Positions 1,480-33,600 of a DNA stretch of 41,498 nucleotides are shown one piece after another (position 1 is the first letter of the stretch; the number at the start of each line of letters is the position of its first letter). Both the position numbers and the translations under genes were made by a program. The notes beneath the pieces are model-generated. The model did no database searches, had not been told where the DNA came from, and was given only the letters and a program-made list of their open reading frames with translations. This DNA comes from a virus: IMG/VR virus record IMGVR_UViG_3300017917_003629, positions 1 to 41,498 of that record; one strand, 5' to 3'.

Positions 1480-2347
1480 CGTATTTTCTTATCAGTTCCT
1501 TTAATTCGTCTAATGTTATAGAACATTTTTCTCCTTTGGATGTATTTTTATTGTATGGTAACATTTCTAAATTACAAATATGTCCTATAACTTCAACTGG
1601 TACTTTATTTTTAAATCCTTCAAACACACTATATTTGTGATCTAAGTGATATTCTTTAGGCCCTCGTTTGTCAAAGTTTTCAAGTAATTGTAAATTATAT
1701 CGTCCTGATTCTAATTCTACTTTATTCCTGTATTCTTGAAATTCGTCACGACTTTCTACTGGGGTCGCTAATCCACACTTTACAAATGCGTCTGACATTC
1801 TTTTTCCTAACTCTCGTTTTTCCTTTATTGTTCTTTTACTTACCGTTTTTTTAAGAGTAGAAACCATTTTATTTTTTATATTATCTTTTTCTATATTTGT
1901 TTTTTTATTCCAATAATTTTTCTTCTTGTTTATATTTTCTTTTTCTTCTTTTGTTTTTGTATTAAGGGTATGTTGCCATTTTTTCTGCCGTTCAGCCCAA
2001 ATTTCTAATCCGCGCTCTTTACCATATTGAACAATGCATTTTTCTTTCGTAAATGTAGCTTGATGTTCTGATAGTTTATTTTTTGCCTCATCTTCTGTGT
2101 AGCCTTTTGTCAACCAAAATTCTTTACAACGAGGGGTAAGTTTTCTTTTTTCTTCAACAGACAAGTTTGCTCTGGCTTCTCCTCCCTTTGATTGCCTTTT
2201 CTTAACTAAAAGTTTTGCTTCTTCTAATGTATGACCTTTATTAATATAATAATTAACATTGTTTGGTCTTCTAATAGATATTTGATACACTGCTTCTTCC
2301 TCTGAGTATCCCTTGCTTATCCAATATTGTTTTGAAAAAACAGACAT
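1466..2347 (-). CDS. HNH homing-type endonuclease between gp47 and gp46
   Basis: 293 residues. The C-terminal part carries an HNH-like metal-finger core: LDH at 235-237, then N259 in HICNLEML, then N266/N268 in NKNTSKGEKC. The N-terminal two thirds is very lysine-rich and holds repeated short helices of the pattern YWISKGYSEEEA / FWLTKGYTEDEA (near residues 8-20 and 77-90), followed by a QYGKERGLEIWAER segment; such helices accompany phage HNH enzymes and may bind DNA (inference). Free-standing HNH genes in T4-like phages commonly spread by homing into conserved replication genes, and this one splits the gp47-gp46 pair and overlaps the gp46 start by 14 bases. It has the best Shine-Dalgarno of the leftward genes (AGGAGA, 5 bases before ATG) and its own late promoter within a hairpin (see separate entries). 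Cleavage target unknown. Confidence 0.82.
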   Translation of the reverse strand: MSVFSKQYWISKGYSEEEAVYQISIRRPNNVNYYINKGHTLEEAKLLVKKRQSKGGEARANLSVEEKRKLTPRCKEFWLTKGYTEDEAKNKLSEHQATFTKEKCIVQYGKERGLEIWAERQKKWQHTLNTKTKEEKENINKKKNYWNKKTNIEKDNIKNKMVSTLKKTVSKRTIKEKRELGKRMSDAFVKCGLATPVESRDEFQEYRNKVELESGRYNLQLLENFDKRGPKEYHLDHKYSVFEGFKNKVPVEVIGHICNLEMLPYNKNTSKGEKCSITLDELKELIRKYDDNS

Positions 2348-2352
2348 AATAA

Positions 2353-2390
2353 TCTCCTATGACATAACTATTTATCAATGGCACAGGAAA
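2353..2390 (-). promoter_or_regulatory. Hairpin hiding the HNH gene ribosome site, with late promoter in its loop
   Basis: Read on the minus strand, TTTCCTGTG (2390-2382) can pair with CATAGGAGA (2361-2353): nine consecutive pairs including two G-U wobbles, with a 20-base loop. The 3' arm contains the AGGAGA Shine-Dalgarno of the HNH gene (2358-2353). The loop holds GATAAATA (2376-2369), a T4-type late promoter. A start about 6 bases downstream would fall near 2363, at the beginning of the 3' arm, so the late RNA would lack the 5' arm. T4 gene e and I-TevI are known to use this design. The pairing is seen in the sequence; the regulation is inferred. Confidence 0.6.
2369..2376 (-). promoter_or_regulatory. 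Late promoter element GATAAATA before the HNH gene
   Basis: Minus-strand match to the T4 late -10 element TATAAATA at 7 of 8 positions, ending 21 bases before the HNH start codon. It is the only late-type element noticed on the leftward strand in an intergenic position, and lies between two genes (47 and 46) whose T4 counterparts are early or middle genes. It should therefore time HNH expression late and independently of its neighbours. Confidence 0.5.
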
Positions 2391-3460: not shown

Positions 3461-4357
3461 TTAATCTTCTAACCAAGCTTTTTCACCTATACCTTGATTC
3501 ATTCTAGAATAGCTTGGGTTTAATCCATTCATTTCTAATATATCATCACGAATGTTTTGATTACGCTTTTCTGTATTTAAAACACGGCAAAAGCTATTTG
3601 TTATAGCAGCAGTATAGTATGCGAATGGATTTTGTGATTTAGCTTCATTAAATCTTAAACCTACATAAGTCAATTGTAGTATTGCTGAGTTACGCATTTC
3701 ATCATTATAAGTATAACCACGCCAATTGTATTTCATAGCATATTTTTCACATAGCATAATATACATTCTAGCAAGTTTGTCAGTAATATTGCCGTGATCT
3801 TTACTAAAATGTCCACGCTTAATACCACCTACCCAATGACTTTTACCAACACAATAAAAGTTACCTTCTTCATCAATTTTATAATGTTGAAAAGGAGGAA
3901 AGTTTACTTTTACATGTACCATATCATCAACTTCACCTGCTGTAGTTGGATCTTCTAAATCAATAAAAATTTCTTCATCAATATCATCAAACTCCATGAT
4001 ATCAACCGCTGTTTTTTTCTTTAATGTTTTCTTTTGTGCTTTTGGACTTAATGGGATATGATCCCAAGTCATTACACGGAAAACTAAATCAGTAATAGGT
4101 ATTTGTTTGATATCAACTTTTTCTCCTGTCTCTGCGAAAATTCTAGTTACTCTAGTTTCTTTTGCTTGTTTTATTGTATCACGCTTGTTTGCATATTTAA
4201 AACAATTTTCTAGACTATCTTGAGGGAGGTCAACGATAAAATCGTATCTATGATATTCTGGTTTAGAATAATAACAAAAAGTGTTTTTGCTTTCGTGTAT
4301 TTCTTTTAGTATGTCCTTATTATTAAGGTAATTGACAGGTTTTTTTGTGGTACTCAT
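3461..4357 (-). CDS. 55: Late-transcription sigma factor gp55
   Basis: Phage sigma factor that redirects host RNA polymerase to late promoters, normally with sliding clamp gp45 and co-activator gp33. The C-terminal half carries the sigma region-2-like segment typical of gp55: NWRGYTYNDEMRNSAI, then FNEAKSQNPFAYYTAAI (NPFAYYT at residues 243-249 of the 298-residue form) and a basic NTEKRNQNIRDDI helix. The N-terminal NYLNNKDILKEIHESKNT also fits phage gp55 proteins. An acidic insert (about 125-160, rich in D and E) makes it longer than T4 gp55 (185 residues). The start is placed at ATG 4357 (MSTTKKPV), not at the ATG 54 bases upstream (4411), because AAAGGA lies 4 bases before 4357 and the upstream extension would run through a promoter. 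It sits opposite the late genes it is expected to control. Confidence 0.84.
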   Translation of the reverse strand: MSTTKKPVNYLNNKDILKEIHESKNTFCYYSKPEYHRYDFIVDLPQDSLENCFKYANKRDTIKQAKETRVTRIFAETGEKVDIKQIPITDLVFRVMTWDHIPLSPKAQKKTLKKKTAVDIMEFDDIDEEIFIDLEDPTTAGEVDDMVHVKVNFPPFQHYKIDEEGNFYCVGKSHWVGGIKRGHFSKDHGNITDKLARMYIMLCEKYAMKYNWRGYTYNDEMRNSAILQLTYVGLRFNEAKSQNPFAYYTAAITNSFCRVLNTEKRNQNIRDDILEMNGLNPSYSRMNQGIGEKAWLED

Positions 4358-4408: not shown

Positions 4409-4451
4409 CAATTAGGGTAAAATGTGGGTAAAAAAGTGCTTTTTTATTTAT

Positions 4452-15662: not shown

Positions 15663-18600
15663 ATGAGAATAAGAACACTAAATTTTTTACCTGAGATTTT
15701 TCAGACCCCAACAAACGCACAATTTCTAAATGCAACACTTGATCAACTAGTCAATGGTCCTGCAATAGAAAAAATCCAAGGATATATTGGTAGTAAAATT
15801 GGTTATGGAATTAATTCTAATGATTATTATGTTACAGAACCAACAAAAACAAGAGTAGATTATCAACTTGACCCAGGTGTGGTTTTTACAAAAAATGATG
15901 AATCTGTAGCAAAGGATTTTTTAAGTTATCCAGGCATATTAGATGCATTAAAATTACAAGGTGGAATTACTAATAACAATAATAATTTGTTTAGTGCTCC
16001 CTTCTATAGTTGGGATAGTTTTTGTAACTTAGATACACTTATTAATTTTAATGAATATTATTGGTTGCCTGAAGGTCCACCTGCAGTTATTGTTAATAGT
16101 GGTATTTTATATCCTGAAAACAATTATGTCGTTACTGATGATTTACAAGGTTATTCAATACAAATAGAAGGGGACAATCCTATTGATGATAGTAACCCTC
16201 CTTTAACTCTATTAAGAGGTGGCACCTATACTTTTCAGGTAAATCAACAAAATGGTTTTTGGATACAAGGTGAACCTGGAATAAGTGGCGCTAGTTTATT
16301 ACAACCTAATCTTAATGTAAGAGATATTCTAGGTGTTACAAACAATGGAGAAAATGTAGGTACGGTTACTTTTAATGTACCATTAAAAACAGCACAAGAT
16401 CAATATAACTTTGCTACATCATTAAATGTTGATTTAGTTTGTACTACACCATATGCTAATGTAAATGGTCAAACATTAAGTAGCATTGGTGGTAGTATTG
16501 ATGGAGTTACATCATTAAATGGTTTAAACATTTTATTTTATAATACAGGGTCGGGTACTGGCAGCAGTAATCTTTATACTATTACAACAAGTGGAAGTCT
16601 AAGCAATCCTACTATTAATTTAAGCGCAGGCGTAGCTATTCCAACTAATGTAAAACTAAATGTGCAATATGGCACCACTTACTTGGGCCGTAGTTTTTAC
16701 CGTAGTACATCTGGAGTAATAACAATTATTCCTTACCTCAGTGCAGAACTTGATACTCTATACTATCAAGACCAACAACAACCAAGTAAAGTTGGGGTTA
16801 TTAAATTAGTAGATAGTACTTCAACTTATAGAATTGATGTTGATACAGAAATATTAGGTAGAGCTAATTATACAAGTCCTAATGGAGTTGTTTTCACAAA
16901 TGGATTAAAAGTAATTTTTGATGGAAATATTTATCCATCAAGTTATGGTTCAGGGCAATATTATGTGCAAGGAGTTGGAACAGCTATTGAATTAGTTAAT
17001 ACAAATGAACTTGTAAATTTTGAAGCTTATACATCATTGGTTGCTAATCCATACGACATATTGCCATTTGATATAGGAAATTTTGATTATAATTTAAATG
17101 TTCCTTTAGAACAAGATTATATTACTATAGCAAGAAATAGCATTGATAATAATCCATGGAGCCGTAGTAATCGTTGGTTTCATATTGATGTAATTCGTAA
17201 TACTGCAACTTACAACAATGATCCTACGATTTTAACAACCTATGCAAGTTATGAGAACAAAGCTAAAAGACCTATTATTGAATTTTATCCCAATTTAAGA
17301 TTATTTGATACAGGAGTAGCCAGTAAAGGATTGGTAGATTTTGTAGATTCAAGAACAGGTGATGCATTAAGTTATGTTGCTGGACAATATAATTATTATC
17401 CTGATACAAATGTTTATACAGATTATACAGCAACTATCAATGGTGTAGTAGCAGGAACATCTACAACAATTACAGTTGCGAAAACCGATGTAACAGGTAC
17501 ATTTGCAGTTGGGCAATACATAAGTGACATTTATCAAACACCTACTATTAGTGTAATCCCAAATAATGCATATATTACTAGTATAACTGGCACAAGCACA
17601 TTAACCATTACAATTGCTTGGACAGGAAATAAAACATTTGCAACAACAAATGATGCACAACTTGTTGCTACCGTTGATCCTTTAAGCAATTATGAATTGT
17701 TTGACGGTGCTAAAATTGTTTTTGTTAATGATTCAAATTTAGAAACAAAAACAAAAATTTATGTAGTTAATTTTGAAACAGTTGATACTTCAATACCTCC
17801 TGTTATTACACTAACAGAAGCATTAGATGGACAAATTTTAGAGGATAATCAATTTCTAACCACAAGAGGTGCATTATATATTGGCAGAACATTTTATTTT
17901 AATGGTACGGATTATGATGTGGCACAGCAAAAAACTAGTGTAAATCAAGCACCATTGTTTGACGTATTTGATCAAAATGGAATAAGTTTTGGTAATAGTG
18001 AGTACTATAAAGGAACAAGTTTTGTAGGTAGCAAGCTTTTTAATTATGGAATTGATGTAGGGGTTGATGACCCAATATTGGGTTTTCCGTTAAGATATAG
18101 TTCAGTTGACAATGTAGGTGACATTAGTTTTGATGTTTCATTGAACACGGATACATTCGATTATGTTATTAACACAGATCCTATTACATTAAAAGTTAAT
18201 ACAGGTTATGTATTCAACTACACAACAAGAACAACTTATACTAGACAATTAGGTTGGCAAACAGCAGCAGGTGACAGTGTCCAATATCAAGTGTTCACAT
18301 TTGATTTTGATATTACTAATCCTACTATTACCTTTACCTGCGATGTACCTTTAAACAACTATACAGGTATTGAATTAAAAACTAAAGTAAATGGTGAAAA
18401 TGCAGCAGAATATGCTATTCAAGTTAATGATTTTTACTTAACTTGTTTAGGCCGTTACGCAGAACAGGGAGGTTTAGACTATTGGGTAACACTTTTAGTT
18501 AATAATATATTAACTGTAAATGAAGTAGAAACATTAATTTGTAGTAGTCCAGAAGCATTGAGTCCAAGTTGGAAAAACACACCTTTCCCAAGTGTTAAGG

Positions 18601-21600
18601 TATTTGTTAACAATGAATTTCAATTACCAACAAATTATACTGTTACAACCGATACAACATCAACAACGATTACACTTGTAGTTGATAGCCCTGTAAGTAC
18701 TAAAGTACAAGTTTTATTATTGAGTAATACAGTTAGTAGTAACGCATATTATACTATTCCAATTAATTTAAGTAATAACCCATTTAATACTGATATTTCT
18801 ACAGTTAACATTGGGGATATTCGTTCACAATATCAAAGTATATTTTATAATGCTCCTAATATTACAGGGCAAATGTTTGGATCAAATAATTTCCGTGATT
18901 TAGGAAATCTTGTACCTTATGGTACAAATATTATACAAAATAGTAGCTCATTAGTTGCACCTGCAAGTTTTTTACGATTACAAAATCATAATTTCTTTGA
19001 TGCACTTTTGTATAATAGCAGACAATACATTAATTTTAAAGCATTGTTAGTTGACACAGTTGCACAAATAACAATGAACCAAACATACACTCCTAGCACT
19101 GTATTAGATAATGCATTGGATGTAATAAACGGTAGCAAAACAGATACGCAATCATTTTATTGGAGTGATATGATTCCAAGTAAGGCTGCATATGTTACCA
19201 ATTCATATACTTTTAAGAATGCTTTTGACACAAGTATTTTCCCATTAACAAAAACTTATGATTATACCGTTGCAAATTATGACGGGATATTAATTTATGT
19301 TTATAGAACAATTACTGGTGTACTTGTAGAAAAACAATTAATTAAAGATATTGATTATACCGTTAGTACAAATACTCCTAGTGTAACTATTACATATAAT
19401 TTACTACAAAATGATATTGTTACGATTAAAGAATACAATCAGACATACGGATCATTTGTACCTAATACACCAACTAAGTTGGGATTGTATCCAAGTTTTG
19501 AACCAAGAATTATTTTAGACTCAAGTTATTCGACACCTACATATTTTATTGTTGGACATGATGGTTCATATAATAAACTGTATGGTACATATAATACAGT
19601 GTTGGGATCATTAGTAGATTTTCGTGACCAAGCTCTACTTGAATTTGAAAAGCGTGTTTATAATAACCTTAAATTAAGTACTGAGGTATTAATTCGTGAC
19701 TATGAAGTTTTGCCTGGGTTTTTTAGAGATACCATACTTAGTCAAGATGATTTCTTAGAAATTTATAGTGAAGCATTTTTAAATTGGGTAGGAACAAATA
19801 GATTAGACTACAAATCACAACTATATAATGCAAACAATGAATTTACATATAACTATTGGCAAAGTGGCAACAAATTAGATCAGGAACCTATTTTTCAAGG
19901 ATTTTGGAGAGGTGTTTATCAATATTTTTATGATACAAGCACACCAAACACTACACCATGGGAAATGGTTGGCTTAGTAGAAAAACCAACTTGGTGGGAG
20001 GCACGGTATGGTGCTGCACCATACACTAGTGATAATTATATTTTATGGAATGATTTGTCACAAGGCATTGTTTATAATGATGGAAGCCCATATGTAGTTC
20101 AGCAGGCAATCAGACCAAATTTATTAGACATATTACCTGTTGACAGTGCAGGCAATTTAGTAAGTCCATTAACTAGTGTTGTAGGAAATTATACTGACAC
20201 ACTTTTCCGTCGTGATTGGAAAGTAGGTGATATTGCTCCTGTAGAATATAGTTATAGAAAAAGTTCAACATGGCCTTTTGACTTAATTCGTATATTTGCA
20301 TTAACTAAACCAGCAGAATTTTTTAACTTAGGTATTGATTTAGACAATTACAAATATAGCAGTGAATTTAATCAATATCTTGTAAATGAAAGAAGCCATT
20401 TAGTTTTAAGTAATGTACAAATTTATGGAAATGGCACAGCTAAGACAAGTTACATAAATTGGATCGTTGACTATGAAAAACAAGTAGGCATTAATGCAAC
20501 TACAAACATAACTAATTTATTTAAAAATCTTGATGTTCGCTTAGTTTATAGAATGGCAGGTTTTAGTGATAAGACTTTCTTACAATTTTTTGTTGAAAAA
20601 GGCACTCCAAATAGTGTAAATGCATCATTATTGATTCCTGATGAAAGTTATTCACTTTTATTGTATGAAAATCAACCATTTAATAGAATTGTTTATAGTT
20701 CAATTATTGTACAGGTATTAAGCAATGGTTATGCAGTATATGGTAATTCACAAAATATTGCTTACTTTACTACATTAACTCCAATTAATAATGGTAATAA
20801 TGATAATATTACAGTAGAAGGAACAACTGTTACTGTTGCAAATAACTACAGCGATAATAAAACTATTGTTCCATATGGTACTATTTTTAAAAATATACAA
20901 AGTGTTGCACAGTTTATTGCAAGTTATGGCGCTTATTTACAATCACAAGGTTTATTATTTGATGAAATTGAAAATGGAATAGAAATAAATTTCAGACAAC
21001 TTACAGGTGAGTTTATATATTGGGCATTAACTGGTTGGGAGATAGGTAATATTGTTACTTTAAACCCTGCTGCAAATAAATTGTATTTTAATAAAGATAG
21101 TAACATTGTACAACCACTTACAATACAAAATAATAATTTTATATTAAATCAAAACTTATATCCAATACAATTGAACGATTTAAGTATTGAAAGATATCAA
21201 ACTGAATTTATTGCTAAACCATTAAATGGCGGGGATGCAATTAGTTACGCACAATTTAGTGTAAGTAATTTTGAACATGGTATTGTTTTTGATAATGTTA
21301 CATTATTCGATGACACAATTTATAATTTAGTAACAGGATTAAGACAAGACAGAATATTATTAAAAGGTGTTAAAACCGCAGAATGGAACGGTACTGTTAC
21401 TGCTAGTGGATTTATACTTAATCAAGATAATATAGTTGAGTGGGATAAGACTAAATCTTATACCAAAGGTGAAATTGTAAAGTATAAAAACAAATATTGG
21501 ATTGCTCTTAAAAAGCTAGAACCAAGCAATCGTTTTGAAGAATTAGGTTGGAAACAAACAGATTATAATGAAATACAAAAAGGATTGTTACCAAACAGCA

Positions 21601-24600
21601 GCACAAGAAGTTATGAATCTGCACTATATTATAATGTAAATCAGGCCAATTTAGAACAAGATAGTAATCTACTAGCATATAGTTTAATTGGCTATAGACC
21701 AAGAGATTACTTAGCTACTGTTGATCTAACTGATACTGCTCAAGTACAAGTTTATAAAAACTTTATACGCAATAAAGGAACTAGAATTGCAGTAGATACA
21801 TTCAGAGGCGCACAATTACCTCAAGGTGGAATCAAGTATGGTGTTTACGAAAATTGGGCTATTAAAGTAGCAGATTTTGGTGGCACACTAAATGATAACT
21901 TTTTTGAAGTAAGATTAAGTCAAAGCCAACTTACTGGTAACCCTAGTATTTTAAGTTTAACGAATGGAGTACCTACAATTGGTGCACAACAATATGTTCC
22001 AATTTACAAGTTGTATAATTATAATACTCCTGTTACAGATGTTAATGTATTGCCTACAATAGAAAGTTATACTCCTAGTGAAGTTTACCCAACTGCTGGA
22101 TTTGTAAACTTTAATGATGTTAGAATGTCTGCTTATTTTTATAATAACTTACCAAATGCAGTTAATAGTGAAGGGGTAGTTGTACCTATTACAGACTTTT
22201 ATGTTGGTGATTATGTTTGGATCGCTAATTTTAAGAGCAGTTGGCAAGTTTATAGCTGGCAACCATTTGGTCGTGTTATTTCAATGCGTGGTAATTTAAA
22301 TGGCACAACAACTGTAAGATTCAGTGACTTGCATAATTTGTCTAGACTTGATCCTATAAGTATATTAAATTTTGATAATGCTGCAAATGGTTATTACTTT
22401 GTAACAACTGTTGTAAATCCATATGAAGTTATCATTAATCTTACATTAGAAGTTAATAATAATGTATTAACAGGCCAAGGTATTGCACTTAAGTTTATCT
22501 CACAAAAAGTACAGAACCCTTCTGATATTATAAACTTAAACTTATTACAAAGTGAATTTATTAAAAATAAAGTTTGGGTAGAAACTGATACAGATGGTGG
22601 TTGGGCTGTTTATAGAAAATCTTTAAATTACTCACAAACAAATAGCTTATCTGAAAATAATACAGTAAATTACGGAAATAGTGTTGCTACAAATAGTGCA
22701 TTTGGTTATTTGGTAGGAGATTCAACTGACAATAGTGTTTACCGATATTTTACTAATTCTTATACAAATGACTTGGAATTAGTACAATTATTAACAGGGT
22801 CAACTGGTTTTGGTAAGAGTATAGCTTATCACAATAATTTTGTTGCAATAAGCGAAACCAGCAGTGCAAGTCCAAAAGTATATATCTATGTTACAAACAC
22901 AAATAGTGCAATCAATACTAATTTAATTGAAGTACAACAACTTAAAAATCCAGGCAGTTCAAGCAATTTTGGATCAAGTATAGACTTTAGCCGTGATGGT
23001 AACTACTTGTACGTTAGTGAAATATATAATAGTTCCATAACAAATGATAGAGTATATGTTTATGTAAAAGAAAACATACCTTTAGGTGCTGGATATTTTG
23101 TTCCTGGACAAGTTTATACTATTACTAGTGTAGGAACTACAGATTTTACAACTATCGGTGCTACAGAAAACTTAGTAGGAATTACATTTGTGGCAACAGG
23201 TATTGGCACAGGAACAGGCACTGCCAATCAGATTACTTATAGATTGAGTCCATACAATAGTGGTTATATTGCTGCACCAACGGCACAAATTGATTTTGGC
23301 TATAGTTTAGCGACCGATTATAATGGTGACACATTAATTGTAGGTGCACCAGGTTATGATTACGATATTAATACAAATAATACTGGTCGCAGCTATGTTT
23401 ATAATAGAACTATCCAACAATTTGAAGTTCAATATAATTCAGTATTGTTTGGTTATCAAACATTTAACTTAGGTTGGACTCCTAATCAAGTGACTACAAC
23501 AGTTGTAAGTACTAATTCAACCACAGATAAGATACTTTGTAATTATGTAGCGGGAATTATTGTGAATGCTACAGCGATAGAACCAGGAGTTGATTACAAA
23601 ATCTTAAGTGTTGGAAGTACATCATTTACTTCAATAGGTGCTAGCGCAAATACTGTTGGAACAACATTTACTGCAACAGGAGTGGGCACAGGAACAGGTA
23701 AAGTTTATAGACCGTTAACACCAGTTATATTTACAGGAAACCTACTTGATAGTTTAGTACAAGAATACAAAGTTTACTTTGTTGATACTTTGGAAGAAGT
23801 TACACCAGGTGTCTCCTTCACAATTAAAATAAAAGAAGATAGAAATAGTTCTACTATATTACCTATTGACACTGAAACTTTTGCAACTCCTCCAAATGTA
23901 TATTTTCAAACAAATGATTTACAGGTCAGCAAAAATGGTACTGTAGTGCAAAACAATAACTATGGTGTGGTTGGTAACATGTTTGTATACACCTCGCCAT
24001 TATTAGCTGGAGATTTAATTTCGGTAGGGGACAGTAAACTAAATCTTGTTCAAACATTAGAATCTTCAAACACACCTACGATTGGGGTAAGTTATGGATA
24101 TAGTGTTGATGTTACTAGATTTGGTAGTGAATTATTAATTGGCGCTCCATACGATTTAAACAATCAAACACAAGAAGGTGCTGTATATCGTTACACAAAT
24201 GGTGGTGGTAAATATGGACTTATAGTTGGTACAACTACAGTTAATGTCACCGCAGATCGCAAAATTTATCTTAATGGTTTTCAAGTTATAATTCCTTCAG
24301 GATCGAGTGCTAGTGATGTTGCAGGTATTATCAACAGTTACAATTTACCAAACATACAGGCTAGCTCAAGTAGCGGGATACTTATTATTGGTGTAATTGA
24401 TAGTAACCGTACTGTACCAAATGAGAAACTATTATTATCAGTTTACGATAATGCTACTACAACATTAAATGAACTTGGACTAGCAATTTACACAGAAACT
24501 CAAACAATATTATGTCCTCATCCATATGGTGCTACTCAGTTTGGTAGTGCTATTAAATTTAATGAATCAGATAGTGTTATTATTGGCGCACCAGTAGGAA

Positions 24601-27600
24601 CAAGATATTCATTTACTAGTTTTGATTTTACAGATGATGAAAGTTTTATCAACGATACAGTTTTTGATAATAATGCTACACAATTTGTTGATGAAAATGT
24701 TAATGCAGGTGCAGTTTACATGTTTGACTATTTACCTGCATATAATGAAAGTTTAAGTAATGTAGGAAACTTTGTTTACGCACAAAGCATTAATGATAAT
24801 ACACAGACATATGGCCCAAGTCCAAGATATGGTGCCAGCTTAGATTTTAACACAAACAATATAATTATTGGAAGTCCATACTATAGTGTTGGATCAGTAG
24901 ATGGTAAAATTAATATTTTTGAAAATAGTACAGGTCTAAAAGATTGGTCAATATACCGTAGTTCAAGTCAGGTAGTGGATATTAATCGCATACAAAATAT
25001 ACAAATCTATGACATTACTACAAACAATACATTAAGTAACTTAGATTATATTGATCCATTGCAAGGTAAGATTTTAGGTGCAGCAAGACAAAATTTAGAT
25101 TATATTAGTAATGTTGATCCAGCAAAATATAATAGTCCTGATAGTTCTATAACAGGTATGATTTGGGGACCTGAGAATGTTGGTCAACTATGGTTTAACA
25201 CTAATAATGTAAGATTTGTTAATTACCATCAAAACGATGTAAAATATAATAGTAAATACTGGGGTACAGTATTTCCTGGAAGTGATGTAGCAGTATATAG
25301 TTGGGTAGCTAGTCCCAATTCTCCTGATCAATATATTGGTCCAGGAACTGTATTTGATGTAACACAATTTGTTCAAGAGCCTGTTCTCAACGCTGCAAAT
25401 CAACTAAGTATAACTTATTACTTTTGGGTCCGTGATACTAATATTATTTTCAAACAAGCTAACAAAACATTAGCAGATTCAGTCGTTGCTAGTTATATAC
25501 AAAATCCAATTCAATCTGGAATAAGCTATTTTGAACCCTTGTTACCAAATACATTTGGGTTATACAATATTCAGCAATATTTAAATGGCACAGATAGTGT
25601 ACTACATGTTGGTTATACTACTGGCAGAAGTAGTGATGTGCCACATAGTGAATTCACATTGGTTAGAAGTAATTTTGCAGATGACTTTTTACCAGGTGTA
25701 CCTACAACTATCCCCGATAGTAATGTACCAATTTATAATCAAGAACCAACTGGGTTATATGCTAGACTATTAGCTAGTTTAAGTGGAACTGATACAGATG
25801 GTCAAGTTGTGCCTGATTTCTATTTACCCCCTGCTGTACAATCTGGTATACAAGTTAGACCAAGACAAAGCTTTTTCTTTGATAGATTGTTAGCGTTAAA
25901 AAATTATATTCAATATGCTAATACAGTTATGAAACAATTTCCTATTATGGAAATCAAACCTGATTTAAGTTTGTTATATAGGTCATTTAGTTTAGGAACA
26001 AGACTAGACACCACAATATCAGGACCTAATGCTGATTATTATGCAACATTAGTAAACAATTATTATGTCGAATGTATTGGTAGATATGCTGAACAATCAG
26101 GTCTTGATTATTGGGTAAATGTTTTAGTAGAGAATCTAGCCACACCACAAGAAGTTAGAGGATTAATTTGTAGTAGTCCTGAAGCTTTACAAGGTCGTAA
26201 AACTCCATTTGATGTAACAAATTATTGGACAACTATTAATTGGTGGGCACCTGGTTACGATAATAACACAAAAGCTGCACAACAAGTTAATTTTTATGCA
26301 GACTTATCAACATTAAATGTTCCTAGAGGTACTATTGTATTAGTTGGTCAAAATATTGGTAGCCAAGAATATTATATCTACGAACCTGATTTAGCTGTTG
26401 GAACAGAACTTACTACAACAGTAACAGGAGCAAATGCTACTCAATATGCGACATTGGTAAATGAAATTTATATAGGATGTTTGGGCCGTTACGCTGAACA
26501 GGCAGGACTTGATTATTGGGTAACTGTATTAGTAAATGGTCTTACCACACTTAATGAGGTAGAAGCTTATATTTGTAGTAGTCCTGAAGCATTAGACAAT
26601 ACATCTAATCCAAATTGGCGTAGAATTGGATTACAAAATGGTACTATTGAATTTAGTAATTATTTGTATGATTATCCTGCTGGTAAAATAGGGTATGGTG
26701 ATAATTTCTTTGATACTTACGATTTTGATCAATACCCAAGCTTAGAAACATATTATATTATCCGAGCACTTTGTGAACAAATTTACACTGAAGATTTATT
26801 AATTTTTAGAAATAAATCATTAATTTTGTTATTTGATTTTGTACAAAGTGAAACAATTCAATCACAAAACTATTTACCATGGTTGAATAAGACTAGCTTG
26901 GTTGATGTTAGTCATACAATCCGTGAACTATTACCATATGAAAATTATAAGACTGATAATCAAGCTTTCTTAGAAAGTTATATTACTGAAGTAAAACCAT
27001 ATCATGTTGTTATAAAAGATTTCTTATTGAAATATACTGGTAGTGAAGTTTATGAAGGTAATTTATCTGACTTTGATTTACCAAGTCAATATAGTATTAG
27101 TCAGGAACAATTTATTACTCCAATGTTGGTTTATACTGATCCAACAGAAAATAATCAATATTTACCAACATCTATAGTATGGGATACTATTCCATACAAA
27201 CAATGGTTCCAAAATAAAGGAGTAAGTTTACAAGCTATACAGCAATATCCAGCTACAGAACTAGACAGTTATATAGACCTTAGCAGCAACTATTTGTATG
27301 CAAAAAATGTTTATGGTTTTCCAATTAATGGTACAATACAAATTGGCAATGAATTAATTGGATATAATGCGATTGATCCATCTTCAAATAAAATCAGTCA
27401 ATTAGTTCGTGGACTTAATGGCACAGAAATTTCAACACACTTACCAGGTGACACAATCTTATTAAATATACCACCTGTTGTAGTACTTTATGGTGGTAGA
27501 GGATATGTAGAACCACCTAAGATTACAGTAACTTATGATACAACTACATATCCTGCTCCAAGACAATATATAGAACTTGAACCTGTCATGAATAATGATG

Positions 27601-30600
27601 AACTATTTTCTATTAATGTTATTAACGCAGGTCAAGGGTATATGGTAGCTCCTATTATAAATGTTGAGCCAAGTTATATTGCTAGTTTTTCATACACAGA
27701 TGTTAATGTAAACTTTAATGTTGTAAGAATATTTGCTCCCGAATTACAGACTGGTGATTTAATTCAGTATAAAGTTGGTACAGGTAACGGTATTGTTGGT
27801 TTAGAAAATAATCAATGGTATTATGTTGCTATACTTGCAACACAGCCTAGCGCAATCATAGCACTATATGCAACACTACAAGATGCAACGCTTGACACAC
27901 ACCGTATTGTATTTTATAGTGCAGGAGATAGTACTAATCAAACATTTAATCTTGGTGCTAGAGTTGTCCCAACATTAACCTCAAGCCCAACTAGAGAATT
28001 AAACACAACTTTACGATTTGATAGAACAAGTTATAGACCTCAAGTTACAGATTGGGAAGCAGGTGCGTTTTATGCAGGGGAAATTGCAAGTTCAACTGGA
28101 TTGGTTTCATACAGTAGTAGCAGCATAAAATTACAAAGTACATTACCACCAATCAATAATATATTAGCAAGTGCTACGGGTGAAGTATTAGTAATAAGTG
28201 ATGTAACTAATGATAGAATAATTACTTTCAGTGAGTTTCCAAGAAGGGTGGTAGGTACCACTAGTGGTAGTAACACTATTGTATTATTACCATATGATGA
28301 TGGTGGTGGATATAGTACTGCTTCTGGTTCAACATTTGGTATGACAATTGGTATGCCAATTATTTTCCAAGGACCATTACAAGGGGGCATTCAACCAAAT
28401 GTAACATATTATGTTGCAAGTATTGTAAGCAACACAACATTTACAATTAGTCAAAATCAATTTGGCCCAACATATGCATTAACAACTTCAACTATTCCTG
28501 TAGTTCCTGGTGCAAAGGCATATGCTGGTAAAATTACTGATACTGCAATATTAGATGTATATTATCCAAGAATACAACAAGTTACTACAGTTAATAATAA
28601 CCGTGTTTATAGTTTCCCAACTCCAGTTGGCACAGGTGGCACTAACTCATTATATTCTGGGGTATCATTATTGTTTACTGGTACTGAGTTTGGTAATATT
28701 ATTGCTAATGAAAATTATTATGTCAGTGCTGTACTGGATGATGAGTCATTTACAATAAGCCATCATGAAACTACAACAAGAACAACATTAAGTCAAACCA
28801 CTGTTACAGGTAATATTGTTACTGTTAATAGCACAACAGATTTTGTCTTTGGCGATTTAGTAGTGTTTACTGATTTTGTTGTTACAGCAGGCAATTTTGT
28901 GATAGGTGACACGTACACAATTGCAACATTAGGTAATACTGATTATACATTATTAGGCAGCGATGTAAATACTGTCGGTACTGAATTCATTGCTACAGCT
29001 ACAGGAACAGTAATAGCAGGATCATTTGTTCCAGGTTTATTATACACAATAGTTTCAGTAGGTTCTACTAACTTTACAGCTATAGGAGCTGTTAGTAACA
29101 CAGTTGGTGTGAAATTTATTGCTACAGGTGTTGGTTCAGGTACAGGAACTGCAAGTCAAGGAAATGGTACTGCAAATACAACAACATTCGGTGGACTGAC
29201 AAGTGGCACTTTCTATTATGTTAATCAAGTACTAAGCTCTACAACTCTTACAGTTGCAGCATCATTGGGCGGTAGCAATGTTACATTAAGTAATCAAATT
29301 GGTACAGGATATTTGTACAATCAGAATAATATTGACACACTAGTAAATGGTACAGGTAACATGACCATGATGGTTGCATTACCAATAAGTCCAGGCATAG
29401 TAAATGGTCAAGAATTCACAATTTACGAAACCACAAAACAATATCCAAACTTAACACCAACTAATACTGAATTATGGGGCAGAACAATTTTAGCTACTAT
29501 AGGTAGTCCAGATTCATCAGCTAATAAAATTGCATTAGCTAAACCAAGTGCAAGTGTTGATGCAACAGACTACATTTACTATAACATGCCTATTAGATTA
29601 ACATCATCGGCTATAGGTGGTTTGGTAACTGGTACTACATATTATGTTGTAGATTATAGCGGTAGAGTAGATCCACAGACGAGTTTAGTCACACCAAGTT
29701 TAACAGTTGATGTTACCGCAACAATTTCCCCAAGCACATTGTCATGTTTAACCGCAGAGAATTTATATGTTGGTATGCCAATTGTCTTTAGCGGCGAAGG
29801 TATGGGAGGGGTATTAATTGGCACAGAATATTTTGTCAAAACAATTAATTACACAGCAGGAAATAATAGCTTTACAATAAGTGAAACATTAGGTGGAGCT
29901 ACATTTACTGTGACAAACGATGTAACTGGTATTATGCGCGGTGTTGGTGATCAGTATATTAAATTATCAAGCACTGTATCAGGAACGCCTGTAGCATTAA
30001 CTCAAACTGTAGGAGAAGAAACTATTGCACAGGTGAGTGCAACTTTAACAAGTCCTACTATTAGTATTAGCTCAATATTAGGTGGTTACAAAGCTATTAT
30101 AACTGATAATGGTGCAGGATATACTGAAAGCAATTTATTAACAATAAGCGGTGCATCATTAGGTGGAGTAACTCCAGATAACGATTGCACACTTTATGTA
30201 TCGGCAGTTGATAGTTTTGGAGGAATTACAAATGTTATAGTAGCAGGAACTCCCAATACTATAAGTGATGCATATTATGTCAAAGTGATTGGTGCAAATC
30301 AATTAGCATTGTTTAGCGATCCGTTGTTACAATTACCAGTTAATGGTCAAACAATTGAAGTTGCAGGATCATTCACAATTGGAAAATTATACACAATTAC
30401 TTTCGTTGGTTCAACTAATTGGAACAGTATAGGTTATGTGGGTACTCCAACAGTTGGCGGACAATTTGTTGCATCTGGTATAGGAAGTGGAACTGGAACA
30501 GCATCTACAAGTGCTATTTCATATCAAGGAATTACAACCGAACCAATATCTTACATCAGTGATACTGGTGTTCTGCCACTACAAACAAATCAAATTAGAT

Positions 30601-33600
30601 TAGCTACTCCAACTACTGACCGTTATGTTGTTAATGATCAGGTATTTTTCTCAGGGACAGTTGGTGGTAGTATAGAAGCATATAAACCGTACTATATAGA
30701 AAGTATTACTACAGATTACTTATTAACAATTAGTGATGTACCTGGAGGTAGTGCAATTACTCTGACCTCTTACAATGCAAATAGTAATATGTACATAAGT
30801 AAAATTGGATCTATCGCATTTAAGCAAGCACCTATTTTATACAATCAAAGTTTAGTTCGCTATAATAATAAAGTATGGGAATGTTTAATTAGTAATAATG
30901 ATGAAGAATTTATTATAGGTAAATGGGAAATTATAGATAGTGATAGCAGAAAACTAAATGCATTAGACAGAGTTGTTGGTTATTATAGCCCAACTGTTAA
31001 TATGCCTGGAATTAATTTGCCCCAATTAATGACAGGTTTAGAATATCCAAACACTACATATTATGGTAATCAATTTAATCCAGCCGAACAGTTTACAGTA
31101 GATACAGAATTACAAGGGCAACCCTTCTACTTGTATGGTTACAATAATACCAGTGTTATTAATGACGGGTCTAATATAATTATTACTACAAATTCTGCTA
31201 ATAATTCATCATTAATATTGAGTCCTGATGCTTCAAATTATACATTAGATAATATTACAATTGTTCCAGTTGGATTTACCGATATTGTTTATTCAGGTAC
31301 AAAATATATTATTACAACAAACGATAATAATGCACCAATGCTTGAAAGCACAGATGGAGTAACTTGGACAGTTAATGATAATATTTCTTCATTGACTACA
31401 GAACCAATTAATTCAATCATGTATTATAATGGAAAGTTTGTTGCAGCAGGAGAAGATGTTTACACAAGTACAGATGGCACAAATTGGTCAATTACTGCTA
31501 ACTTTACTAGCACACAACCAGTTGTTATGAATGAGACAAAGCGTATAACATTGGGTGCTACAAATTATTACACAGTTGTAGGATCATCATATATCGTGTC
31601 TGGTTCATTATATGTTCCTTTCCCAATATTCTTATATAGCACAAACGCAACAACATGGACAGGCAGTTTGCCCGATTCAAGATACATGAATTACAGTGTA
31701 GCATGTGATGGTACAAATATTGTCACAGTTGGGGAAAATGGTATAATCTCCCGTAGCACTGATCTAATTAATTGGTATGGAGTTAATGAAACTTTTGCAT
31801 TTAGTATAAATGTGCCTGGTAATTATTTAAATGTAACTAGTACAGCAGGAATGCAAGTCGGAGATAGTGTAAGATTTAGTGAAGCATTTGATGTGATTAA
31901 TACTACAACAACTTACACAATTAGTAATATTTTAAGTTCTACCCAAGTTCAACTAACAAGTGTAACATTCTTAACAAGTCCAACTGTATCTTCATATATG
32001 TATTTGTATCCACAGACTAGTAACTTGAATAGCGTATACTTTGCAAATGGAAAATTTGTTGCAGTTGGCGATTTATATTTGGGTGAAGGCTTAATCAAAA
32101 CAAGTACAAACTCAACAAATTGGACAATTGTAAGTAGCAATGTTCCTCATAACTTAAACAGTGTAACATATGATGCAACTAATAGTGTATGGATAATCGT
32201 AGGGGACAATAATGTTATACTTACTAGCAGTGACAATGGTGTTACATGGGATAAAAATGCTACTTTTAATATTCCTGAGCCAATTTATACAATACAAGGT
32301 GATACATTCTTAAGTGGTTATGGTCCCGAAGAAATGGTGCCTGGAATCGTTGAAGATAATTTAACATTAATTGTTAATACAAGACCAGGTACAAATTGGC
32401 CTGCAACAATTTACCAACATGTTGGTTATAATGTAGTGAGCACAACAATTACTCCAAGCCCAAGTAATCAAACAGTTTATAGTTTTGCAGGTTTATTAAC
32501 AGTCCCTGCACAATTATCATGTTTTGTTATTGATGGTACGAGCGGATTATCAACTTCAATTTATGTAACAAATGACTATACAGTAAACTGGGTAGCACAA
32601 ACCATTACATTGGGATCATCATTGCCAGTAGGAAATAGTTTAAGAATTGATGTATATGAAGTAGGAAACGGCGATCAATTAATTAAAAGTAATACTTTTG
32701 AGGATCCAATAAGAACAGACAGCAATACTGGATTTAATGAAATATATTTAAATTGTAATTATAGCGCAACTATCACAAATGGTAGTGGTTTGATACAAGA
32801 CTTACCATATACTTCAACTGTTAATTGCACTAAAACTGAATCAGCTTACAACACAATTACTGTATATGATACGACAATATTTACTTTAAATATTCCAGTT
32901 AAATTTCAAGGACCAGTATTTGGTGGTATTGTAGCTGGAACAACTTATTATGTTAAATTTATTAATAGTGCAACAAATAGTATTGTAGTTAGTGCTAGTA
33001 TATCAGGTGGTGTTGCGGGTCCAGCTTTCACACTAACAAATGCAACAGGTAGTATGACTGCTATTGTTAGTTCAGGAGCAGGTGTTCCGTGGACAGATCC
33101 ATTCGTCGCACACAATGGTGTAAAATTAGTAGTTGGCCGCACTAATTTAGCACTGTCAACTTCCGCAGCTACAAACGCAGTAACAACTAATAGTACAGGT
33201 GGCATGAGTGCAGGGGACACTATTATTTTTGATGATAACATGTTTGGTGTATTAACTCCACAAACATCATATACAATTTTAAATATAGTTGATGCAACAA
33301 GATTTAGGATTGAAAATCCAGCAAGTCCAGGTAATCCACTAACATTAACAAATGCAACTGGCCGTAGTGTATTTGTAACTAATGATTATGCTATTGGAAT
33401 ACAACCAAATAGTACTCAAGCTAAGGTAGTTTTTGCAAGTCAATATGATGATACTAATGATTATTTGGTATATAGTTTCTTTGGCGAAACAGAACCAGAG
33501 CAATATGGTTTCACAATACCAGAAACTGAAGTGTTTACAGCTACAGCTGGTCAAACAGTGTTTAACTTGGCAAATTACTCAGCATATGATAATGAAACAG

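Follow-up and report, generated by a model that had tools for sequence, protein, structure and literature searches.

Whether a homing-type nuclease gene lodged in a phage operon can be kept silent on read-through RNA, and be translated only from RNA started late in infection, is the question raised by a locus on the minus strand of the window, i.e. the whole analysed stretch of a virus record of 41,498 bases. The genes follow one another on this strand in the order gp55 (late sigma factor), gp47, HNH gene and gp46. The features are given below with the evidence for each.

4357-3461, minus: gp55, late sigma factor (phrog_12791, E 5.9e-73; ATG at 4357, the longest ORF opens with TTG at 4411)
3447-3419, minus: sigma70-type (early) promoter, TTGATT-17-TATAAT, directly before gp47 (sequence; position fixed in relatives)
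3413-2400, minus: gp47 (SbcD-like), upstream of the HNH gene (Pfam Metallophos; 80 relatives)
2390-2382, minus: 5' arm of the hairpin, TTTCCTGTG (sequence and fold)
2376-2369, minus: late promoter octamer GATAAATA, in the loop (sequence; in most relatives also 17-34 nt upstream of gp48-like genes)
2363, minus: predicted late transcription start (T4 rule, octamer at -13 to -6)
2361-2353, minus: 3' arm of the hairpin, CATAGGAGA, with AGGAGA at 2358-2353 (sequence, fold, opening cost)
2347-1466, minus: free-standing HNH-type nuclease gene, 293 aa (ORF; phrog_5104, E 1.5e-16; HNH motif)
1479-1, minus: gp46 (SbcC-like), running off the window (phrog_77, E 2.2e-74; ORF coordinates)

The nuclease gene and its insertion site

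The presence of a free-standing HNH gene between gp47 and gp46, as originally predicted, is supported by the open reading frame, the motif, the phrog_5104 match and the gene order. The protein displays the L-D-H...N-L...N motif common to phage homing endonucleases, which is invariant in the alignments, and this motif together with the phrog_5104 match indicates an HNH catalytic domain; the product would be expected to act as a nuclease and to promote homing. The C-terminal part is modelled with a pLDDT of about 90, and the nearest PDB folds, mostly Cas9 HNH domains, are not significant. The HNH models of Pfam and NCBIfam gave no match to the protein, and a PDB sequence search with the HNH alignment gave none either. 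A phrog_5104 search of the contigs of relatives returned only the L083, L084/L085 and L088/L089 records.

Analysis of 80 gp47 relatives revealed that gp47 and gp46 overlap as ATGA in most of them and that about a third carry inserts. The junction is empty even in L002, whose gp47 is 92% identical to that of the window, and both occupied and empty sites exist among close relatives of the window. Cargo other than nucleases is probably translationally coupled to gp47, because it mostly begins at the ATGA overlap with gp47, with no promoter-hairpin leader. In-frame nuclease inserts at the junction, unlike this cargo, possess a short leader with a late promoter.

Across L001-L080 the junction is a cargo hotspot with sulfotransferase-like, oxygenase-like and radical-SAM-like genes (named by eye) and small ORFs, and in L006 it holds an antisense GIY-YIG gene, also named by eye. 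In L001 (3081-4799) and L003 (5011-6729), gp46 itself is interrupted after the Walker motif GTGK by an apparent split intein (N part CVGINTIVRVRN..., C part ...YYTNEILSHN). The two halves enclose a free-standing nuclease gene, and the N-terminal portion of this nuclease shares about 37% identity with the window HNH protein. Another nuclease related to the N-terminal part of the window protein (L097:2021-4331; LR756500, an uncultured 462-kb phage) adjoins an intein-like sequence after a PhoH-like gene (names by eye).

The likely timing of the operon was read from its promoters. Among 67 distinct relatives, 47 have their best sigma70-like -10 box ending exactly 6 nt upstream of the gp47 ATG, and the match before gp47 scores at least 9/12 in 72% of the relatives as compared to 18% of shuffles. 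The fixed position of this promoter suggests that gp47 is probably transcribed early, with read-through into the HNH gene. ATAAATA is found upstream of gp55, on the coding strand, in the window and in 46 of 77 loci, and the operon may therefore be transcribed late too. The spacing of 6 nt between the -10 box and the ATG (window 3447-3414, minus strand) suggests a leaderless or nearly leaderless gp47 mRNA. Among cultured phages, the gp55-gp47-gp46 order recurs in Klebsiella phage Muenster, in Pseudomonas phage PA5oct and, interrupted by a small gene after gp47, in Agrobacterium phage Atu_ph07. Elsewhere in the window, a single open reading frame of 6540 aa spans 15663-35285.

Leader hairpin and late promoter

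The gp47 stop codon (2402-2400) is separated from the HNH ATG (2347) by 52 nt, which hold TTTCCTGTG, GATAAATA and CATAGGAGATT (from 2361). A nine-position stem burying AGGAGA had been predicted here, and direct reading of the minus strand bears this out: TTTCCTGTG (2390-2382) and CATAGGAGA (2361-2353) form nine contiguous pairs, seven Watson-Crick and two G-U, in the order T-A, T-G, T-A, C-G, C-G, T-A, G-T, T-A and G-C. The Shine-Dalgarno site AGGAGA (2358-2353) is buried in the 3' arm, the stem covers the whole ribosome site, and folding of the 91-nt leader gives the nine pairs in the centroid as well as in the MFE structure. The octamer GATAAATA (2376-2369) lies, as had been proposed, inside the 20-nt loop (2381-2362), 21 nt 5' of the ATG. 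It is the usual late-promoter octamer of the clade and precedes the divergent gp48-like gene in relatives. Late promoter octamers of T4 sit at -13 to -6, and a late start near 2363 is expected to remove the 5' arm, which ends at 2382, from the late RNA.

The cost of opening the ribosome site was calculated as 8.3 kcal/mol for the read-through RNA and 2.7 for the late RNA. T4 leaders treated in the same way gave 14.2 for the long RNA and 3.5 or 0.8 for the late RNA (gene e), 9.4 and 5.0 (segB), and 11.9 and 0.3 (I-TevII). The cost is greater for the long than for the late RNA in all these controls, which supports the proposed identity of the arrangement with the T4 switch; the window value falls at the weak end, near segB.

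We regard it as fairly probable that the HNH homing-type nuclease is silenced on early RNA by the hairpin and translated from late RNA started inside its loop. Early RNA from the promoter before gp47 would read through the HNH gene; in this RNA, if it folds in the cell as computed, the ribosome site would be paired with the upstream arm and little used in translation. Once infection is late, gp55-bearing RNA polymerase would initiate at GATAAATA inside the loop, at a start point placed by the T4 rule, and the resulting RNA, devoid of the 5' arm, would leave the ribosome site free for synthesis of the nuclease.

The stem by itself is only modestly beyond chance, as evident from shuffled 5' parts reaching 8.3 kcal/mol in 20 of 500 trials and random same-strand fragments used as the 5' part in 8 of 400, i.e. 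2-4% of randomised leaders. Taken as a whole, the 91-nt leader has ordinary stability (z -1.27, matched by 23 of 200 shuffles), and an Rfam search of the window returned no family. The promoter carries more weight than the stem, since ATAAATA is depleted in the window (9 observed against 35 expected) and is placed before late genes, three further copies standing 16-19 nt before the ATG of late structural genes. These figures lend some credit to the possibility, which we hold to be less likely, that only the late promoter matters, the stem being a chance by-product of an A/T-rich leader with a purine-rich ribosome site and the read-through RNA being partly translated. A more distant lineage (L084-L087) points the same way, as TATAAATA precedes the HNH gene found there at the gp47/gp46 junction and a strong ribosome-site stem is absent. 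Loss of the stem with gene and promoter retained had been named as evidence against the original prediction; this distant lineage fits that in part. The leaders of the other nuclease genes of the clade, described below, argue for a stem with a function.

Leaders of other nuclease genes in the clade

No close relatives of the exact HNH gene were found in the viral and genome contigs searched. The comparison of compensatory changes proposed with the original prediction gives a positive answer for a sibling nuclease only. A GIY-YIG homing endonuclease gene lies between gp55 and gp47 in 10 relatives, with a leader hairpin over the ribosome site and GATAAATA or TATAAATA inside it. Across nine distinct leaders, 4 of its 16 pairs have both partners changed; when the partner is shifted by 1-3 columns, at most one such double change is left, and the covariation score was reached by none of 500 shuffles.

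A different HNH gene occupies the gp47/gp46 junction in L056 and L083. It has no tblastn link to the window gene, and both match the phrog_5104 family in the C-terminal part. Its leader, (G/A)ATAAATACTACTATAGGAGTAGTAACACAATATG, is identical at 25 of 25 positions from promoter to ATG, as compared to 29 of 76 fourfold-degenerate sites in the gene. A 7-bp stem (TACTACT/AGTAGTA) forms, with the ribosome site shared between loop and 3' arm; its 5' arm stops at the expected late start, so that late RNA would lose this arm. Covariation in the one leader and conservation in the other, in nucleases of the same clade, support a functional stem in the window and count against the promoter as the only working element.

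Further independent cases vary in layout. In L136, CTAAATA lies in the 5' arm of the hairpin and the ribosome site in the loop; in L186, the start codon falls within the 3' arm; and in L109 and L122, the promoter is in the loop with the ribosome site beside the stem. A strong stem that lacks the promoter, as in L124 and L167, counts against the proposed switch. L122, L123, L124 and L167 carry relatives of one HNH gene with a common 14-bp stem before the start; the loops of L124 and L167 have no TAAATA, and these two loops look like mutual inversions.

It had been left undecided whether the window gene acquired its switch or evolved it independently. Repeated origin is favoured, because leaders of the same design, though unrelated, are found on other inserted nucleases in this clade, and these sibling elements make the question answerable by comparison.

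Nuclease genes were further compared with other late genes in the loci at hand, taking all genes with ATAAATA 12-36 nt before the ATG (18 hand-made nuclease groups and 57 others). The opening cost of the long minus the late RNA has a median of 2.4 kcal/mol in the nuclease groups as compared to 0.96 in the others (P 2e-4), and a helix of 9 bp or more is found in 11 of 18 and 13 of 57, respectively (P 0.004), several of the long nuclease helices adjoining the ribosome site rather than covering it. A first comparison that took the HNH motif alone as the mark of a nuclease gave no significance (P 0.21 and 0.05), because GIY-YIG and other strong-stem nucleases were counted as controls. The labels were then reassigned from motifs, and PHROGs later backed most of those tested. 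As this assignment followed a non-significant run, stronger leader stems in late-promoter nuclease genes than in other late genes are suggestive; the excess speaks against the stem as a chance by-product.

Translation of gp46 and relation to known switches

In the window, the gp46 ATG lies 14 nt inside the 3' end of the HNH gene, with a weak ribosome site (-1.5). In relatives gp46 has practically no Shine-Dalgarno site (median duplex energy +0.6 kcal/mol; -4 or better in 3 of 77), and where the junction has no insert it starts at the ATGA overlap with gp47. Early gp46 synthesis therefore appears to need some upstream translation. Silence of the HNH gene on early RNA would deprive gp46 of its coupling and may cost the phage early gp46. 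A conflict is thereby exposed, in that early gp46 depends on upstream translation and yet the preceding gene would be silenced.

Only 10 nt separate the gp47 stop codon from the hairpin 5' arm, and ribosomes terminating there could disturb the stem and partly open it, which would count against silencing. Taken further, such ribosomes would open the stem so that HNH protein and then gp46 are made early, the stem mainly limiting initiation by free ribosomes. The near-absence of a gp46 ribosome site in relatives, and its start within the HNH end at a weak site in the window, fit this account; a terminating ribosome, however, would reach no further into the 5' arm than its first few bases, and a dedicated late promoter is present, which makes the account improbable. 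Hairpins between phage genes are common, and one with a promoter between late genes in L177/L178 leaves the ribosome site free, but a terminator or RNA-processing hairpin at the gp47 end is highly improbable here, as the stem covers the whole ribosome site, no T run follows it and no terminator-like site was called.

Silencing by the hairpin, the reading we favour, was also proposed to protect the phage. Such protection cannot be taken as given: removal of the I-TevI hairpin did not reduce T4 viability (PMC2988022), and gp46 may suffer. A wider proposal, which we consider rather unlikely, is that promoter-in-hairpin silencing arose repeatedly on unrelated nucleases of the gp55-gp47-gp46 region and that the window insertion re-times gp46, early coupling being lost and a late HNH-gp46 RNA gained. 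If true, this re-timing would help to retain the selfish gene at the junction.

The mechanism itself is already established in T4 and its relatives. I-TevI, I-TevII and I-TevIII of T4 share the promoter-in-hairpin timing switch (computed here for I-TevII) and are intron-encoded, unlike the window HNH gene, which has no intron; in I-TevI the timing switch protects splicing. An I-TevI-like operator, i.e. a leader resembling the homing site, was considered and rejected: the leader has no consistent similarity to empty sites, and only L010, one of five, scored high on one strand (4/300).

A reading of the window gene as a new extension of the e/I-TevI switch to a free-standing gene is not supported, since reviews already describe free-standing segB and Aeh1 mobE with such a switch (PMC2988022, PMC3014915). 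Like the window gene, T4 segB (GIY-YIG) stands in an operon with a late promoter and a hairpin absent from late RNA (PMC2988022, PMC3014915), and differs in its tRNA-region insertion site, leader sequence and nuclease family. Aeh1 mobE, a free-standing HNH gene, likewise has an operon setting, a late promoter and a ribosome-site hairpin reported to be absent from late RNA (PMC2988022, PMC3014915); it is inserted at nrdA with a different leader, and the likeness is drawn from its published description. In the T4 lysozyme gene e, the 5' part of the hairpin contains the late promoter and the ribosome site is freed in late RNA (PMC3014915); e is the phage's own late gene rather than a mobile element. 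What the present locus adds is the extension of this classic timing switch to uncultured T4-core phages of jumbo type, in a gp55-gp47-gp46 operon where unrelated nucleases have the same arrangement. HNH genes at the gp18/gp19 junction of T4-like phages (e.g. Serratia phage 4S, Klebsiella phage phi1_146043) share a C-terminal phrog_5104-like HNH domain with the window gene; unlike it, they lie between late genes, where early silencing is not needed.
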